A stretch of 62,067 nt of DNA. It comes from Acidimicrobiales bacterium. Its GTDB lineage: Bacteria; Actinomycetota; Acidimicrobiia; Acidimicrobiales; MedAcidi-G1. Positions 32,232-41,954 of the stretch are shown one piece after another (within the stretch, counting starts at the first letter, position 1; every line of letters begins with the position of its first letter). The translations under genes and the position numbers were made by a program. The notes under the pieces were generated by a model. That model did no database searches, was not told where the DNA came from, and saw nothing but the letters and a program-made list of their open reading frames with translations. The stretch lies in NCBI GenBank assembly GCA_016845305.1, contig JAERSW010000071.1, positions 1 to 62,067 on the forward strand, given 5' to 3'.

Positions 32232-33731
32232 TCAGGATCGGCGGAGTTCGTGGTGGCCGGCGTCGACGATCGGTTCGATCGTGGCGACGCCACCGGAGGC
32301 GGTGACCGGCCGGGCCGTACCGTCCGGGCCGACCAGGGTCCACGCTCCGTCCGCCGGGAGCCCGGTCACCCGCATCGACGTCGGCTGTCCGGCGAACGAG
32401 GCGTTGCGGGCCCGGGCCGTCACGTGCAGGGCCGCGCCGTCCCAGCAGGCCTCGCTGAGCGCCACGTCGGGGAAGTCGACGCCCTCGATCGTGGGCTCGG
32501 CGAAGCGGTCGTCGGGCGGCACGGTGAAGATGCGGCTCCAGGCGCCCGGCGAACACGCCCAACCGGCCATGACCCGGGCGTTCATCTGGCCCCGGGGATG
32601 CGGTTCGCCGAGGCCGAATCCGTAGACGTGCTCGCCGAGGTCGTCGTCGACGGTCGGCTCGTGGACGCCGTCGAGGACCGCCCAGATCCGGTCCTTCACG
32701 GCGCCGTCGTCGAACTCGGCGGTCTGCATGGCCAGCAGGGAGGCGAAGCCGGGGTCGGCCAGCAGCCCCGGCGCCTCGGCCGTCGGCGGGTCGTCCCCGT
32801 CGAGGCCGGTGACGGTCACGGCCAGCTCCCACGCCGCACGGGCCACGTCGGGTCGCTGTGGCGCCAGGTACCAGACGGGCGCCATGAGGCCCATGGGGCT
32901 GGCCACGTGCTCGTCGACGACGGGGTCGTAGTAGAGGTCCATGGCCACGGGACGGCCGTCGTGCCAGGTGACGTAGTTCTCGACGGCGTGGTCCCACCAC
33001 GGGTCGAACACGGCGTGGTGGTCGGTACCGAGCAGGTTGTCGTGCAGCCTCAGACCGAGGCCGGCGCCGCTCAGTCAATAGGGCCAGATCTTGGTGTTCT
33101 CGCAGTGGACGCCGATGGGGCGGTCCCGCCACTGGGCGGCCAGGTGGGCGGCGATGCCCGAATGGGTCCACGTGAACGTGTGCTCGCCGTCCCGCACCAT
33201 GTCGAACGGTTGGTTCCAGCGGTCGTCGCCGGTGACGTGGCGGTGCAGGCCGAGCAGGAGGCCGAAGAACCCCTTGAAGAACAGCATCCCGTCCGCCGCG
33301 ATGGGGTCCATCTGGACGCCGTAGGGGGCGATGCCGTTGGCCGTCCAACCGGGCACGTCGTAGTCGCCCCAGAGGTCCTCGGGGACGAGCGGTCGCCAGG
33401 CGTCGGGGTACGAACCGCGGTCGGGGTCGGGGCCGAACTGGGTGAGCCAGTCCGACGCCGCCCACCAGCCGGTGTGGCGTTCGACGAGCTCGTCGAGGAT
33501 GCGGGCGTAGGGCTCGCGCCACGCCGGGGTGCGGTCGGCCATCAGGGCCACCGAGTAGGCGGAGTCGACGAGGTCGAAGCGGTGCCACGACAGCATCGGC
33601 TCGCCGGTGCGGTCGTCCCAGTGGGGATGGGGCTGTCCCTCGCGGCTCCAGTCGTCGGGGGTGGTGGCCTTGCGGTGCAGGTACCGCAGCCAGCCCAGCA
33701 GCCGGTCGTCGAGCGGGGCGGGGGTGGTCAT
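32232..33731 (-). CDS. Linalool dehydratase/isomerase-like selenoprotein (TGA read as Sec)
   Basis: 499 residues if TGA 33075-33077 is read as selenocysteine (Sec219). The frame is open on both sides: it ends ECENTKIWPY-like before the TGA (VHCENTKIWPY) and continues LSGAGLGLRLHDNLLGT, then FDPWWDHAVENYV to 32232. The fold is alpha/alpha-barrel LDI type: GMLFFKGFFGLLLGLHRHVTGDDRW is a classic region. In Castellaniella linalool dehydratase/isomerase two active-site cysteines lie nine residues apart (171 and 180 in one numbering); here Cys210 and Sec219 are also nine apart, so Sec replaces the second. A SECIS-like hairpin follows. ATG 33731 overlaps the stop of the DDAH-like gene. Substrate unknown; a tertiary alcohol or alkene is possible. 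Confidence 0.82.
33045..33063 (-). promoter_or_regulatory. SECIS-like hairpin
   Basis: Minus-strand stem CGGCCTC/GAGGCTG (seven pairs, one G-U) closing the loop GGTCT; 18 bases lie between the TGA and the first loop G, the same as in E. coli fdhF. The stem end, loop and stem start (TC-GGTCT-GA) are identical to the hairpin at 22636. Confidence 0.78.
33075..33077 (-). other. In-frame TGA, predicted selenocysteine codon
   Basis: Coincides with the second catalytic cysteine of the linalool dehydratase/isomerase family by spacing from Cys210. Both flanking frames are intact. Confidence 0.8.
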
Positions 33732-34501
33732 GCGGCGTCGCCGCCGATGAGCAGGCTGCAGCAGGTGAGGGCACCCTCGGCCCGGGCCAGCTCGGAGGCG
33801 TCGACGAGGCGGACGTCGAGGCCGGCGTCGGCGAGGCGTTCGGCCGTGCGGGGGAAGGCGGCGGCGGCCAGCACCGAGTCGCCGATCCGCACGACGTTGG
33901 CGGCGCCGGGCTCCGACGGGTCCACGGCGATGCACCGGTGGTCGGTGAACTGGTCGACGTCGACCCAGTCGGGATTGGCGACCAGCAGGCCGTCTCCGGC
34001 GACGGTGACGGCCGACTTGAGGTGGAGGCAGCCGGTGACCGTCGCCGCGTGGACCCGGTAGCCGTGGTCGGCCACCGCGGCCCGGAACTGGTCGACGGCG
34101 TGGTGGTCGCTGCGGCTGGTCAGCCCGATCCAGACGTCGCGGCCCGACACGAGGACGTCGCCGCCGTCGACGGTGCCCGGGGCCTCGATGGCCACGACGT
34201 CCCGGTGCGGGGCGAGTGCGGCGGCGATGGTGGACCGTTCGCCGCGGCGCGACTCGGCGCCGGGTCGGGTGAGCACGGCGACCTCGTCGAACACGACGGC
34301 GGTGTCCTCCACGAACACCGAGTCGGGTAGGTCGGGTTCGGCGGGGAGGCGTTCGACCCGGCAGCCCAGGTCGGCCAGAGCGGCCTCGTAGGCGGCGTGC
34401 TGGGCCCGGGCGACGTCGACGTCGATGGGCGTGCGTTCGAGGTGGGTCAGCTCGCAGTCGCCGATGGCGGGGCTGACCTCGCGGGTGATGGCGACCGGCA
34501 C
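33728..34501 (-). CDS. DDAH-like amidinohydrolase
   Basis: 257-residue pentein-fold enzyme resembling dimethylarginine dimethylaminohydrolase (hydrolyses methylated arginine to citrulline). Substrate acids are in SVFVEDTAVVF, GTVDGGDVL is typical, the catalytic His in GCLHLKSAV and the nucleophile Cys in GALTCCSLL near the C-terminus. The stop overlaps the selenoprotein start (ATGA), so both are made from one message; no chemical link between the two is obvious. GTG 34501 follows TACGGT (34511-34516). Confidence 0.85.
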   Translation of the reverse strand: MPVAITREVSPAIGDCELTHLERTPIDVDVARAQHAAYEAALADLGCRVERLPAEPDLPDSVFVEDTAVVFDEVAVLTRPGAESRRGERSTIAAALAPHRDVVAIEAPGTVDGGDVLVSGRDVWIGLTSRSDHHAVDQFRAAVADHGYRVHAATVTGCLHLKSAVTVAGDGLLVANPDWVDVDQFTDHRCIAVDPSEPGAANVVRIGDSVLAAAAFPRTAERLADAGLDVRLVDASELARAEGALTCCSLLIGGDAA

Positions 34502-34570: not shown

Positions 34571-34867
34571 TCAGACGTCGGGGTGGGCGGCGAAGTAGGT
34601 GAACTGGGGACCGCTCCGCAGGACGGGAGCCAGCAGGTCCATCAGCCCGGTCTCGACGCGCCAGGCGAGGTAGGCCTCGTGGTCGGACCGCTGGTCGAAC
34701 GTCTCCCACAGGACGACGTCGTCCGGCGCGTCGGCGTTGGTGTACACCTCGACGGACTGGCAGCCCTGCCATGCCCGGGTGTCGACCAGCGCCTCCTTCA
34801 TCATCTCGACCAGCTCCGCCCCCTTGCCCTCCTGGCACGGGAACAGGACGTGGATCTTCTGGGACAT
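34571..34867 (-). CDS. ABM-like small protein, third of three tandem copies
   Basis: 98 residues, antibiotic-biosynthesis-monooxygenase-type ferredoxin-like fold: KIHVLFPCQEGKGAELVEMM, then VEVYTNADAPDDVVLWETF and a tail YFAAHPDV. Such proteins are dimeric, often small oxygenases or heme-degrading/quinone enzymes, but many have no known role. Its first codons and leader are a perfect copy of those of the 35257 gene. Confidence 0.75.
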   Translation of the reverse strand: MSQKIHVLFPCQEGKGAELVEMMKEALVDTRAWQGCQSVEVYTNADAPDDVVLWETFDQRSDHEAYLAWRVETGLMDLLAPVLRSGPQFTYFAAHPDV

Positions 34868-34960: not shown

Positions 34961-35257
34961 TTAGACGTCCGGGTGCTCCTCGAGGTAGGTGGAGCGCCAC
35001 GGTCCGGTCATGAGCGCGCCGATCACCTCCGTCAGGCCCGCCTCGTCGAGGTAGGCCAGATAGGCCTCGCGGGAGGCGCGGTCGGCCCAGGTCTGGAGGT
35101 GGATGAGGGTGTCGGGGTCGTCGGCGTCGCTGAGGACTTCCACGCCCTCGTTGCCGGGGAACTCCCGGGTCGCGGGTACTCCACCCCGAAAGATCTCGAG
35201 CAGTTCCGGCCCCTTGCCCGGCTGGCAGGGGAACAGGACATGGATCTTCTGGGACAT
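34961..35257 (-). CDS. ABM-like small protein, second of three tandem copies
   Basis: 98 residues: KIHVLFPCQPGKGPELLEIF, LHLQTWADRASREAYLAYL-like middle and tail YLEEHPDV. Protein body is well diverged from the neighbour copies even though the leader is identical to that of the 34867 gene, so the leader is kept by gene conversion or selection. Confidence 0.75.
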   Translation of the reverse strand: MSQKIHVLFPCQPGKGPELLEIFRGGVPATREFPGNEGVEVLSDADDPDTLIHLQTWADRASREAYLAYLDEAGLTEVIGALMTGPWRSTYLEEHPDV

Positions 35258-35350: not shown

Positions 35351-35647
35351 TCAGACGTCGGGGTGGGCGGTCAGGTAGATGCAGGTGGTGGGGCCGGTGA
35401 GCATCTCGTCCCGCTCGGCGAGGTCACCGATGTCGCGGCGCCACTGGGCGTACTCCTGATGGTGGGAGCGGTCGTCCCACGTCTGCCACAGGACGACGTT
35501 GTCCGGCTCGTCGGTAATGGCGAACACCTGGAAGTCCACGCAGCCCGGCCGGGCACGGGTGTCGGGCAGCTTGGCTCGGAGCCAGTCCAGCAACTCGGGT
35601 CCTCGGCCCGGCTGGGCGGGGAACAGCACGTGCGCGGTCTCGGTCAT
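35351..35647 (-). CDS. ABM-like small protein, first of three tandem copies
   Basis: 98 residues: TAHVLFPAQPGRGPELLDWL, DEPDNVVLWQTWDDRSHHQEY, tail IYLTAHPDV. Same length and HPDV tail as the other two. Its leader differs and has a clear ribosome site (CAGGAG). The amidohydrolase stop is 27 bases upstream, so all four genes probably form an operon. Confidence 0.75.
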   Translation of the reverse strand: MTETAHVLFPAQPGRGPELLDWLRAKLPDTRARPGCVDFQVFAITDEPDNVVLWQTWDDRSHHQEYAQWRRDIGDLAERDEMLTGPTTCIYLTAHPDV

Positions 35648-35674: not shown

Positions 35675-36700
35675 TCAGAGTCGGTAGACGCGCTCGGCGG
35701 TGCCGGCGAACATGGCGTCCTGTTGGGCGTCGCCGAAGTCGGCCACCATCTTCTTGAAGGCGTTGTACAGCACCCGGTACGAGAGCGACAGGCGGTCGAC
35801 TGGGAAGTTGCTCTCGAACATGCAGCGGTCCGGGCCGAAGCAGTCGATGGCGTGGAGGAAGTGGTCGCGGTGGGCGGCGACCACCTCGTCCGACGTCGGC
35901 GGGCGCTCGGCGGCGTGCCATCCGAAGCCGTTGTCGGGCATGGCCAGCCCACCCAGCTTGGCCACCACGTTCGGGCAGCGCGCCAACTCGGCGATGTCGG
36001 CCTTCCACTGTTGGAAGATCTCGTCCCGCCGATCGGCGTACGGGCCGACGCCCAATGGGGTGCCGAAGTGGTCCAGCACGATGGTGGTCCCGGGCGCCGC
36101 CCGGCAGAGGTCGACGAACTCGGGGAGTTGGTAGTGGTAGTGCCAGCTGTCGTAGGTGAGGCCCCGTTCGCCGAGGCGTCGAACGCCGGCCCGGAACGCC
36201 TCGTCGTGGGCCAGCCCGGCCGGTGCCCCACCGGGGATGGCCAGGACCTCCGGGTGGTGCGGGTGGGAGATGGCGTGGCGGATCCCCCGGAAGCGCCCGT
36301 TGCCGGCCGTCACGTGGGCGTCGAGGACCTCGTCCAGGCGCCCGTCGGCCGGACTGCCCAGGCGGAGGTCGGCGTGGGCCACGATCCCGGCGATGGTTGC
36401 CCCTGGCCCGGTCGCCGATGCCTCGGCGATGGTGGCCACGAAGTCGGTCTCGCCGACCGGTCGGAGGTGCTCGGGCCCGTTGTCACGGCAGGAGGCGTGG
36501 CACTCCACGAAGACCGTCTGTTCGACGCGGTGGCCCGACCCGGTGTCGGCCCACAGGTCGTCGAGCAGGTAGTCGGCGCCCGGCATCGTCCACAGGTGGT
36601 GGTGGGGGTCGACGATTCGGCGGTCGGGGTCGACGACCTCCTCGTGGACCTGCTCGTACCAGCCCGGCCGGTCGAAGCGGAAGGACGCCCTGGTCGACAT
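35675..36700 (-). CDS. Amidohydrolase-2 family metal-dependent hydrolase
   Basis: 341-residue TIM-barrel hydrolase/decarboxylase. The metal motif is VDPHHHLW near residue 32; the barrel His is in LDHFGTP and the final Asp in FESNFPVD, as in the ACMSD/lactonase branch. It may open a lactone or decarboxylate an acid. TAGGTT (36709-36714) lies 8 bases before ATG 36700. Confidence 0.8.
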   Translation of the reverse strand: MSTRASFRFDRPGWYEQVHEEVVDPDRRIVDPHHHLWTMPGADYLLDDLWADTGSGHRVEQTVFVECHASCRDNGPEHLRPVGETDFVATIAEASATGPGATIAGIVAHADLRLGSPADGRLDEVLDAHVTAGNGRFRGIRHAISHPHHPEVLAIPGGAPAGLAHDEAFRAGVRRLGERGLTYDSWHYHYQLPEFVDLCRAAPGTTIVLDHFGTPLGVGPYADRRDEIFQQWKADIAELARCPNVVAKLGGLAMPDNGFGWHAAERPPTSDEVVAAHRDHFLHAIDCFGPDRCMFESNFPVDRLSLSYRVLYNAFKKMVADFGDAQQDAMFAGTAERVYRL

Positions 36701-39602: not shown

Positions 39603-41954
39603 ATGCCACCCACCAGCAATCGTTCGGCGCCCCTTGAAGTCGCGTGTGTTGGCGGTGGCCCTGCTGGCCTGTTGCTTGGGATCCTGCTCCACACGGCCGG
39701 CACGGGCCGCATGACGGTCTTCGAGCGGAACCGGGCTGACGACACGTTCGGCTTTGGCGTCGTCTTCTCCGACGAGACATTGGAAAACCTTCGCGAGGCT
39801 GACCCAATGGTCTTTGACAGCATCGAGACGGAGATGTCGTACTGGACCACGATGGACGTCCGTCATGGGTCACGCACACTCCAGTCCGGCGGCCACGGGT
39901 TCGCAGCGTTGTCGCGCAAGCGCCTCCTCCTGATGTTGTCCGAACGTGCTCGTGAGGTCGGTGTCGATGTCAGGTTCGAGGCCGAGATCACGAACGTCGA
40001 TGATGTCCTCGATGCCGTCCCAGAGGTGGATCTCGTCATAGGGGCCGACGGTCTCAGTTCGATGGTGAGGACTCAACTGGCCGATCAATTCAAGCCCACG
40101 CTTACGCCCGGTGATGCGAAGTACATCTGGTTCGCGACGAACAGGCGGTTCGAACAGTTCACCTTCCTCTTCGCGGAGACGGAGTGGGGCCTGTTCCAGG
40201 CCCACGTCTATCCCTTCTCGGACGACCAGAGCACCTTCATCGTCGAGACCCGACCAGAAGTGTGGGAAGCAGCCGGCTTGTCTCGAAGCGATCTCCAGCC
40301 GTTCAGGGTCGGAGAGACGGACGAAGCTGCCAAGAAGTTCTGCGAGGAGATCTTCCGGGAGCATCTCGACAGCAGCGGACTCGTTGGCAACAACTCACAA
40401 TGGCTGGTCTTCAACACCATCAAGAACGCTTCCTGGAGTGCGAAGTATCGAGATCGTGATGTCGTCCTGCTCGGTGACGCTGCCCACACGGCTCACTTCT
40501 CAATTGGCTCGGGGACAAAACTCGCCTTGGAGGATGCCATAGCCCTTGCCGAGGAGATCGGGGCCACTGATGGACCGCTGAGTGATGTTCTCTCTGCGTT
40601 CGAGGAGAAGAGGCGGCCTCAGGCTGACAGCCTCCAGCGCGCAGCTGCCACCAGCCAACGCTGGTTCGAGCATCCTGAGCGATACGTCGACCTACCGAGT
40701 GAGCAGTTCACCTTCCAACTACTTACCCGAAGCCAGCGCATTACCTATGACAACCTCTTCCTGAGGGACGTCGACTTCGCACGCGAGACCCTCGAGTGGT
40801 TCCACACGTCGGTACCCGACAGCGTCCGCCCCGACGACCCGGCCACTCCGCCAATGTTCTACCCATTCGAGTTGCGTGGACTACGGCTCCAGAATCGGAT
40901 AGCCGTCTCACCCATGGCGCAGTACAGCGCCGTCGATGGCCTGCCGACGGATTGGCACCTCGTCCACCTCGGAAGCCGCGCTGTCGGTGGTGCCGGTCTG
41001 GTCATGACCGAGATGACCTGTGTTTCCCCGGAGGGCCGTATCACTCCTGGCTGCCCGGGTCTGTGGAACGTTGAGCAGGAGGCCGCATGGAGACGTGTGA
41101 CCGACTTCGTCCACCGGAACTCGGGTGCTGCGATTGGCTTGCAGTTGGGCCATGCCGGGAGGAAGGGCTCGACGAAGGTTGCGTGGGAGGGCATGGATCG
41201 CCCACTGGATCAGAACAACTGGGATCTGCTGGCCCCATCGGCCATCCCCCTCTACGACGTGAACGTCGTTCCGGCAGAGATGGGGTCCGAAGACTTTGAC
41301 CTGGTGCTGACCGAGTTCGTCGATGCTGCCCAACGTGGGGCTGAGGCAGGGTTCGACCTCATCGAGATTCATGCAGCCCATGGCTACCTCCTCTCCAGTT
41401 TCCTGTCGCCGATAACGAACCACCGCACCGACTCATACGGCGGTAGTACCACCAATCGGATGCGGTACCCGCTCGCAGTCATCGAAGCGGTGCGCGATGT
41501 GTGGCCCGACGACCGACCGCTCAGCGTTCGGATCTCGGCCACGGACTGGGTCGAGGGCGGCTTTGGTGGTGACGATGCAGTGGAGCTCGCTGCAGCCCTT
41601 CAAGCGATCGGGGTCGACATCATCGACGTCTCGACAGGCCAGGTGGACCCGGCTGAGGATCCTGAGTTTGGCCGTCTCTACCAGACCCCGTACTCCGACC
41701 GCATCCGGAATGAGCTAGGTATCCCGACGATGACCGTGGGCGCAGTGTCGAGCATCGACGACGCCAACACGATCATTCTCGCCGGCCGAGCCGACCTGTG
41801 CCTCATGGCTCGGCCGCACCTGGTGGACCCGTACTGGACACTCAACGCGGCCATTGATCAGGGCTATGAACTCCACGACTGGCCAGTCCAGTATCTGTCG
41901 GGCCGCACTGCTCGGCGCCGCGAGCAGGAGGCAGTGAGCCTCATGAACCGATGA
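39603..41954 (+). CDS. Bifunctional 2-aminobenzoyl-CoA / salicylyl-CoA 5-hydroxylase-reductase
   Basis: 783-residue fusion. Residues 1-410 are a flavoprotein aromatic hydroxylase (VACVGGGPAGLLLGILLH FAD site, LLGDAAHTAHFSIGSG for the GD motif). From about 423 an old-yellow-enzyme FMN reductase follows (LQNRIAVSPMAQYSAVDG, GLQLGHAGRKGS, EIHAAHGYLLSSFLSP). This order is the 2-aminobenzoyl-CoA monooxygenase/reductase of Azoarcus evansii, which hydroxylates and reduces the ring so beta-oxidation can follow; salicylyl-CoA hydroxylases share it. Key enzyme of the island. Confidence 0.9.
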   Translation: MPPTSNRSAPLEVACVGGGPAGLLLGILLHTAGTGRMTVFERNRADDTFGFGVVFSDETLENLREADPMVFDSIETEMSYWTTMDVRHGSRTLQSGGHGFAALSRKRLLLMLSERAREVGVDVRFEAEITNVDDVLDAVPEVDLVIGADGLSSMVRTQLADQFKPTLTPGDAKYIWFATNRRFEQFTFLFAETEWGLFQAHVYPFSDDQSTFIVETRPEVWEAAGLSRSDLQPFRVGETDEAAKKFCEEIFREHLDSSGLVGNNSQWLVFNTIKNASWSAKYRDRDVVLLGDAAHTAHFSIGSGTKLALEDAIALAEEIGATDGPLSDVLSAFEEKRRPQADSLQRAAATSQRWFEHPERYVDLPSEQFTFQLLTRSQRITYDNLFLRDVDFARETLEWFHTSVPDSVRPDDPATPPMFYPFELRGLRLQNRIAVSPMAQYSAVDGLPTDWHLVHLGSRAVGGAGLVMTEMTCVSPEGRITPGCPGLWNVEQEAAWRRVTDFVHRNSGAAIGLQLGHAGRKGSTKVAWEGMDRPLDQNNWDLLAPSAIPLYDVNVVPAEMGSEDFDLVLTEFVDAAQRGAEAGFDLIEIHAAHGYLLSSFLSPITNHRTDSYGGSTTNRMRYPLAVIEAVRDVWPDDRPLSVRISATDWVEGGFGGDDAVELAAALQAIGVDIIDVSTGQVDPAEDPEFGRLYQTPYSDRIRNELGIPTMTVGAVSSIDDANTIILAGRADLCLMARPHLVDPYWTLNAAIDQGYELHDWPVQYLSGRTARRREQEAVSLMNR

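Follow-up and report, generated by a model that had tools for sequence, protein, structure and literature searches.

A reading frame interrupted by one TGA

The window, meaning the whole 62,067-nt stretch of DNA analysed here, belongs to contig C71 of a draft Acidimicrobiales genome (2.92 Mb, 136 contigs, 98% complete). Its minus strand carries a gene for a protein of 499 residues related to linalool dehydratase/isomerase (LDI), which turns linalool into myrcene and back, with a single internal TGA in frame, nine residues after Cys210; the gene runs from an ATG (33731..33729) to a stop codon that is itself TGA (32234..32232). The gene, its internal features and its upstream neighbours are as follows.

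32232..33731, minus strand: predicted selenocysteine (Sec)-containing LDI-family protein, 499 aa, with TGA 33075-33077 read as Sec (residue 219)
33075..33077, minus strand: predicted selenocysteine codon TGA, counterpart of the LDI catalytic Cys180
33102..33104, minus strand: TGC codon of Cys210, counterpart of the LDI catalytic Cys171; TGA in 26 of 81 genes compared
33045..33063, minus strand: SECIS-like hairpin of 7 pairs (33063..33057 with 33051..33045), loop GGUCU at 33052-33056
33728..34501, minus strand: dimethylargininase-like gene, arginine deiminase superfamily (best NCBIfam score 237.8, under the cut-off of 340)
34571-34867, 34961-35257 and 35351-35647, minus strand: three tandem ORFs of 98 aa with ABM domains
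35675..36700, minus strand: Amidohydro_2 family protein

The original prediction described one frame open on either side of the internal TGA over 1500 bases, which holds; the strand, which it left unstated, is minus. Two other long ORFs share the span, one of 650 aa on the plus strand and one of 621 aa in another minus-strand frame, and in a G+C-rich window of this kind the open frame alone is weak evidence. It is homology, through a Pfam Ldi match that spans the TGA, that lifts the frame above chance. In all ten gene pairs tried, pN was well below pS both before and after the TGA, and the purifying constraint, judged by pN/pS, was weaker after it than before.

The last 4 bases of the dimethylargininase-like gene are also the first 4 of the Sec gene, and the two genes adjoin in the window and in 10 close relatives. 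Further upstream, the three ABM-domain ORFs follow one another at intervals of 390 bases and look like a local triplication. They are inferred to belong to the same cluster as the Sec gene, as is the Amidohydro_2 gene, the latter because 5 close relatives carry a similar gene in the same orientation. Neighbours in the window's clade comprise the dimethylargininase-like gene, ABM ORFs, an amidohydrolase and a PLP decarboxylase; those in a second Acidimicrobiia clade comprise acyl-CoA dehydrogenase-like, hydroxyisobutyrate-dehydrogenase-like and phosphotriesterase-family genes. The neighbourhood was rejected as a guide to the substrate, since the clusters differ between clades and no single substrate follows; the neighbours hint at carbon catabolism, naming no compound. 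Elsewhere in the window, positions 39603-41954 (plus strand) encode a 783-aa protein in which FAD_binding_3 and Oxidored_FMN domains are joined.

Membership of the linalool dehydratase/isomerase family

Pfam Ldi (PF18566) matches the read-through protein with 52 bits (E = 1e-13) over residues 140-306, across the TGA, exceeding the curated cut-off of 26.1 bits. The part before the TGA alone scores 28.8 bits (E = 1.1e-6), and the part after it alone has no Pfam match at E 0.01. In the phmmer alignment, as in a profile search against PDB sequences, Cys210 falls without gaps on LDI Cys171 and residue 219 on LDI Cys180, bearing out the claim that the TGA lies at the spacing of the two LDI active-site cysteines. 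This numbering follows PDB mutant titles; the same residues are 170 and 179 in the accessible part of PMC6600392. The sequence alignments reach only LDI residues from about 112 on, and the fold searches gave no residue table. An AlphaFold2 model made from the window protein and 36 relatives has a mean pLDDT of 94.3 over 499 residues. LDI entries top both fold searches, with a best Foldseek E of 6.7e-11 and a VIA-align Z of 33.9 (rmsd 2.6, 326 aligned residues); the best non-LDI family in VIA-align is GH105, with Z 18.9. In profile score, in fold and in the occupation of both catalytic columns by Cys or Sec, the window protein meets the tests of an LDI-family member.

The protein also departs from LDI in several respects. 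Identity is only about 15-18%. Phe155 stands in place of LDI His129, which we take to have a functional role in LDI. The part aligned with LDI leaves out an extra beta domain at the C-terminus (about residues 413-499), and no signal peptide is evident by eye, unlike in LDI. The capping disulphide of LDI, which involves two N-terminal cysteines (accessible part of PMC6600392), has no counterpart, the window protein having no Cys before residue 210. With Phe155 for His129 and no such disulphide, LDI activity itself is doubtful.

Exchange of cysteine and selenocysteine among relatives

The window gene was compared with the best 80 of 242 relatives from a genome collection, giving 81 genes. The second catalytic site is TGA in 73, TGC in 5 and TGT in 3, so that the check put forward originally, a conserved Cys or Sec at the residue-219 column of homologues, is satisfied in 81/81. 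The first site is TGA in 26, TGC in 39 and TGT in 16 (55/81 Cys). As pairs, these are 47 Cys/Sec, 26 Sec/Sec, 8 Cys/Cys and no Sec/Cys genes. One of the two search patterns held the first site as Cys or Ser, so first-site counts may be biased; the second site was in neither pattern. One gene kept among the 81 (L117) matches in a frame other than that of its reported start and has six TGAs in the motif frame. The best 80 relatives belong to Actinomycetota, Pseudomonadota, Myxococcota, Entotheonella and Chloroflexota, with TGA genes in all five; the Actinomycetota are mostly Acidimicrobiia plus one Pseudonocardia. Most of the genomes are metagenome-assembled, and a single-contig genome (G770) carries a Cys/Sec gene (L156).

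Searches of other breadths, each with the window's own genome included, gave matches in 29 of 198 genomes, in 3 of 396 genomes across the phylum and in 38 of 397 across the order. The 30 match rows of the 198-genome search comprise 23 full-length genes with TGA (19 with one, 4 with two), 2 full-length genes without TGA and 5 fragments. In the window's own family of genomes, all 18 full-length matches (window included) have exactly one TGA, at the residue-219 column, which for two of them (L016 and L019) was assessed via the same contigs as L044 and L046. Thirty order-wide loci were read, with 16 Cys/Sec, 11 Sec/Sec and 3 Cys/Cys, many of their genomes being the same as in the 242-relative search.

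Ser and His occupy the two catalytic columns in two more distant, full-length relatives:

L033, 1501-2901, minus strand: Ser/His form
L034, 1501-2901, plus strand: Ser/His form

They form a separate, fully supported long branch, their genomes have selB, and they are perhaps a paralogue with another or no activity. In a plasmid collection, two Streptomyces records match at 40.5% identity. One of these (L126, 7959-9524, plus strand) is a Cys/Cys relative annotated as a hypothetical protein on a mobilizable plasmid of 998 kb, near alpha/beta hydrolases, a flavin reductase and an enoyl-CoA hydratase family gene. One genome (UBA2110) holds both a Cys/Sec and a Cys/Cys copy (L058 and L094); the Cys/Cys copy is very close in sequence to gammaproteobacterial ones and may reflect a binning error or a transfer.

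A hairpin with a GGUCU loop follows the TGA

The hairpin after the TGA is present as originally claimed, with 7 stem pairs, a GGUCU loop and a spacing of 18 bases from the TGA to the loop; the stem starts eleven bases past the TGA. The loop letters are those of E. coli fdhF. All 73 TGA genes keep the inner six pairs and the 18-nt spacing, and 71 of them the loop GGTCT, with the fourth stem pair varying among C-G, U-A, G-C and U-G. The Cys/Cys genes form only 3-5 of the 7 pairs, and none of the eight retains the hairpin. With 6-7 pairs, a 5-nt loop starting GG and a spacing of 18 nt, the hairpin of the TGA genes fits the bSECIS model (a loop of 3-9 nt with G in its first two positions, a stem of 4-16 bp, spacing 16-37 nt; accessible part of PMC13188914); the fit was judged without applying the model's energy limit to each gene's hairpin by itself. 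At gathering thresholds, Rfam has no match in the window.

Codon choice betrays the hairpin signal. The Gly codon at +7 is GGT in 73/73 TGA genes, a choice made in 21% of cases elsewhere in the same genes. At +9, all 69 TGA genes with Arg use AGR, against 9.5% elsewhere; the other four encode Ser or Gly. In synonymous shuffles of the GGUCU stretch, mean z is -1.89 for Cys/Sec, -1.63 for Sec/Sec and -0.04 for Cys/Cys genes, with one control stretch null (mean z 0.05 to -0.09) and the other near null (0.04 to -0.25). Among single TGA genes, 50-55% have a shuffle p below 0.05. Two Cys/Sec genes containing N were left out of some stretches. When 60 bases are folded, many of the TGA genes shown, though not all, have this hairpin as their optimum.

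Selenium machinery in the genome and its relatives

The genome of the window encodes the Sec apparatus that the original prediction had suggested searching for: selA (379 bits) adjoining selB (285 bits), a tRNA-Sec (67.5 bits; reported by ARAGORN as tRNA-SeC with anticodon tca) and selD (352.6 bits), which has one in-frame TGA of its own:

L124, contig C121, 1501-2433: selD, with the TGA in the motif GAGUGCK

SelD of this genome is itself predicted to be a selenoprotein. The loop of the selD hairpin differs from GGUCU, so this loop is not common to every Sec gene of the genome. SelB was sought in 49 genomes, namely those of 49 of the 80 loci (two share one genome) and the window's own. Of the 42 genomes with a TGA gene, 37 have selB above cut-off, versus 2 of the 7 in which every copy is Cys/Cys (Fisher p = 0.0023, uncorrected for kinship or completeness). 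The 5 TGA-gene genomes without selB above cut-off are all metagenome-assembled, and two partial selB matches in one genome (G590) suggest a gene split over contigs.

Genes with two predicted selenocysteines

Between their two UGAs, the 26 Sec/Sec genes have an additional hairpin whose loop contains the second UGA. The Sec/Sec genes fall into two separate groups, in Acidimicrobiia and in Chloroflexota, and the tree requires the first site to have changed five times and the second twice. As the tree is a quick one, with weak forks and a long-branch warning, gain and loss cannot be distinguished, and the two-Sec state has either two origins or one origin with losses. In three Chloroflexota genes (L105, L109 and L113), the predicted first stem is built from other bases in a shifted register.

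We lean slightly towards the inference that each UGA of the Sec/Sec relatives has its own hairpin, the second UGA lying in the loop of the first, which is perhaps the insertion signal of the first Sec. The competing reading is that the one GGUCU hairpin serves both UGAs and that the hairpin between them is a by-product of Trp-Pro and Leu-Ala coding, and it remains a real possibility, though not the one we prefer. Against that reading, 95.5% of the pairs of the first hairpin are kept in Sec/Sec versus 52.9% in Cys/Sec genes, and 8-codon synonymous shuffles find stability only in the Sec/Sec class (mean z -1.83 in 26 genes, versus -0.23 in 45 Cys/Sec and 0.16 in 8 Cys/Cys genes). The GGUCU loop also starts 45 bases past the first UGA, beyond the 16-37 of the model. 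The effect is smaller over 15 codons, however (mean z -1.31 for Sec/Sec, -0.29 for Cys/Sec and -0.36 for Cys/Cys), and 22 of the 26 Sec/Sec rows are Actinomycetota, so that mostly related rows are not independent. At the first hairpin, some sequences break the model's rule on G in the two leading loop positions, and a similar hairpin is possible in L085 and L096, two Cys/Sec genes near the Sec/Sec clade; both points favour a single hairpin and leave the SECIS role of the first one only inferred.

Identity and possible role of residue 219

That residue 219 is selenocysteine is very well supported, on sequence evidence and without selenium or proteomic data, because Cys and Sec exchange at this column, the hairpin is kept only in TGA genes, constraint continues downstream and the genome has the Sec machinery. 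We regard it as highly probable that the gene encodes an LDI-family selenoprotein whose UGA is decoded by the organism's own SelA, SelB, SelD and tRNA-Sec under direction of the GGUCU hairpin, which would place Sec219 at the Cys180 position beside Cys210.

A sequencing error or pseudogene might be suspected in a draft assembly of 136 contigs, and a different base on re-sequencing had been named as a possible refutation. The same-column TGA nevertheless recurs in 73/81 genes from five phyla, in dozens of separate genomes of which one is a single contig, which excludes an error, and purifying selection acts downstream of the TGA; on these grounds this explanation was rejected and retains next to no weight. 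An altered code, with TGA read as another amino acid genome-wide, or near-cognate read-through would equally leave the frame open with TGA as sense. This too was rejected as scarcely conceivable, since the same gene stops at TGA, the second site swaps only with Cys codons in the 81 genes, the genome has a full Sec system and the hairpin is lost where Cys replaces TGA in the Cys/Cys genes.

The chemistry is far less certain than the residue. According to the accessible part of PMC6600392, the LDI cysteines are essential, Ala or Ser changes inactivating the enzyme; the two catalytic residues have to be kept reduced, acid/base catalysis is the role assigned to them, and a covalent thioterpene route has also been proposed. 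By analogy, we infer with about even confidence that the window protein may be a cytosolic dehydratase, hydratase or isomerase acting on an alcohol or alkene, with Sec219 and Cys210 as its acid/base pair. A later paper, which we know by its title alone, reportedly argues for noncovalent mechanisms in LDI. Sec219 would by its position take the role of LDI Cys180 and pair with Cys210 as the two LDI cysteines do; selenium would keep residue 219 ionised and easily re-reduced, which could protect the thiol-dependent chemistry from irreversible oxidation. The original prediction's further idea, that selenium would strengthen the residue as nucleophile and acid in hydration, is a conjecture. The substrate is probably not linalool: Phe for His129, the missing capping disulphide, the lack of an evident signal peptide and the extra C-terminal domain all point to another substrate and a cytosolic enzyme.

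The selenocysteine could alternatively be real and the Sec/Cys or Sec/Sec pair a redox couple or another nucleophile, with only the barrel common to LDI. We consider this quite possible, if somewhat less than evenly so, as most characterised selenoproteins have redox roles and a thioredoxin-like fold (accessible part of PMC13188914), and the same barrel occurs in glycosidases and epimerases. The low identity to LDI, the Phe at the His129 position and the beta domain beyond the LDI-aligned part also fit such a role. Yet both LDI catalytic columns are Cys or Sec in 81/81 genes, LDI lies far above the other fold matches listed (Z 33.9 versus 18.9), and some neighbours (acyl-CoA dehydrogenase, CoA transferase, thioesterases and a hydroxyisobutyrate dehydrogenase-like protein) suit carbon metabolism.

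A predicted selenoprotein family in a known enzyme fold

The original prediction knew of no described selenoprotein in the LDI family, and none came to light. A May 2026 review tabulates 119 prokaryotic selenoprotein families (PMC13188914, accessible in part); in what was accessible, the table has no entry for LDI or PF18566, and the words 'linalool' and 'dehydratase' do not occur in the main text. At an E threshold of 0.01, no model of NCBIfam release 20.0 matches the window protein or the relative L028. As many table entries carry NCBIfam accessions and none matches, we infer that the family is unlikely to be listed under another name. Open-licence papers, preprints excluded, include none that pairs linalool dehydratase or PF18566 with selenocysteine or selenoprotein, and the titles of open-licence papers on selenoproteins in Acidimicrobiia include nothing on an LDI-related family. 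Within the reach of the open-licence literature, the family is new among selenoproteins, its enzyme fold being a known one; it may have been reported elsewhere.

The family adds to the selenoproteins a barrel enzyme related to an alkenol dehydratase and found in five phyla, and if the reading is true, selenium is at work in an unexpected kind of enzyme. Its active site occurs naturally in Cys/Cys, Cys/Sec and Sec/Sec forms, and with this series the effect of selenium at a catalytic thiol not known as a redox centre can be tested directly; the Sec/Sec forms bear on how bacteria might insert two selenocysteines nine codons apart. By inference, gene callers that treat TGA as stop would cut or miss such genes.

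Comparison with known systems

With E. coli fdhF-type bSECIS selenoproteins, the family shares an in-frame UGA, a downstream hairpin and G at the first loop positions. Unlike such selenoproteins, the window protein is not a molybdenum enzyme, nor does it have a thioredoxin fold, and its predicted Sec replaces the catalytic Cys of an acid/base enzyme family. With LDI of Castellaniella defragrans (PDB 5HLR, 5G1U and 5I3T; PF18566), it shares the (alpha/alpha)6 barrel and two catalytic positions nine residues apart, and differs in having predicted Sec at the Cys180 place in 73/81 genes and at the Cys171 place in 26/81. With multi-Sec proteins such as the UxxU Prx-like protein, MbdU and TsoB (Table 1 of PMC13188914, accessible in part), the Sec/Sec forms share two Sec per protein; in contrast to these, the two residues occupy both catalytic positions of an LDI barrel, with a spacing of nine residues, and the second UGA is inside the loop of the hairpin that follows the first. 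Taken as a whole, an LDI-type family with selenium at one or both catalytic positions, used in non-redox acid/base or seleno-adduct chemistry and combined with a compact double-insertion signal, is a proposal that we put forward tentatively, at a little short of even confidence.
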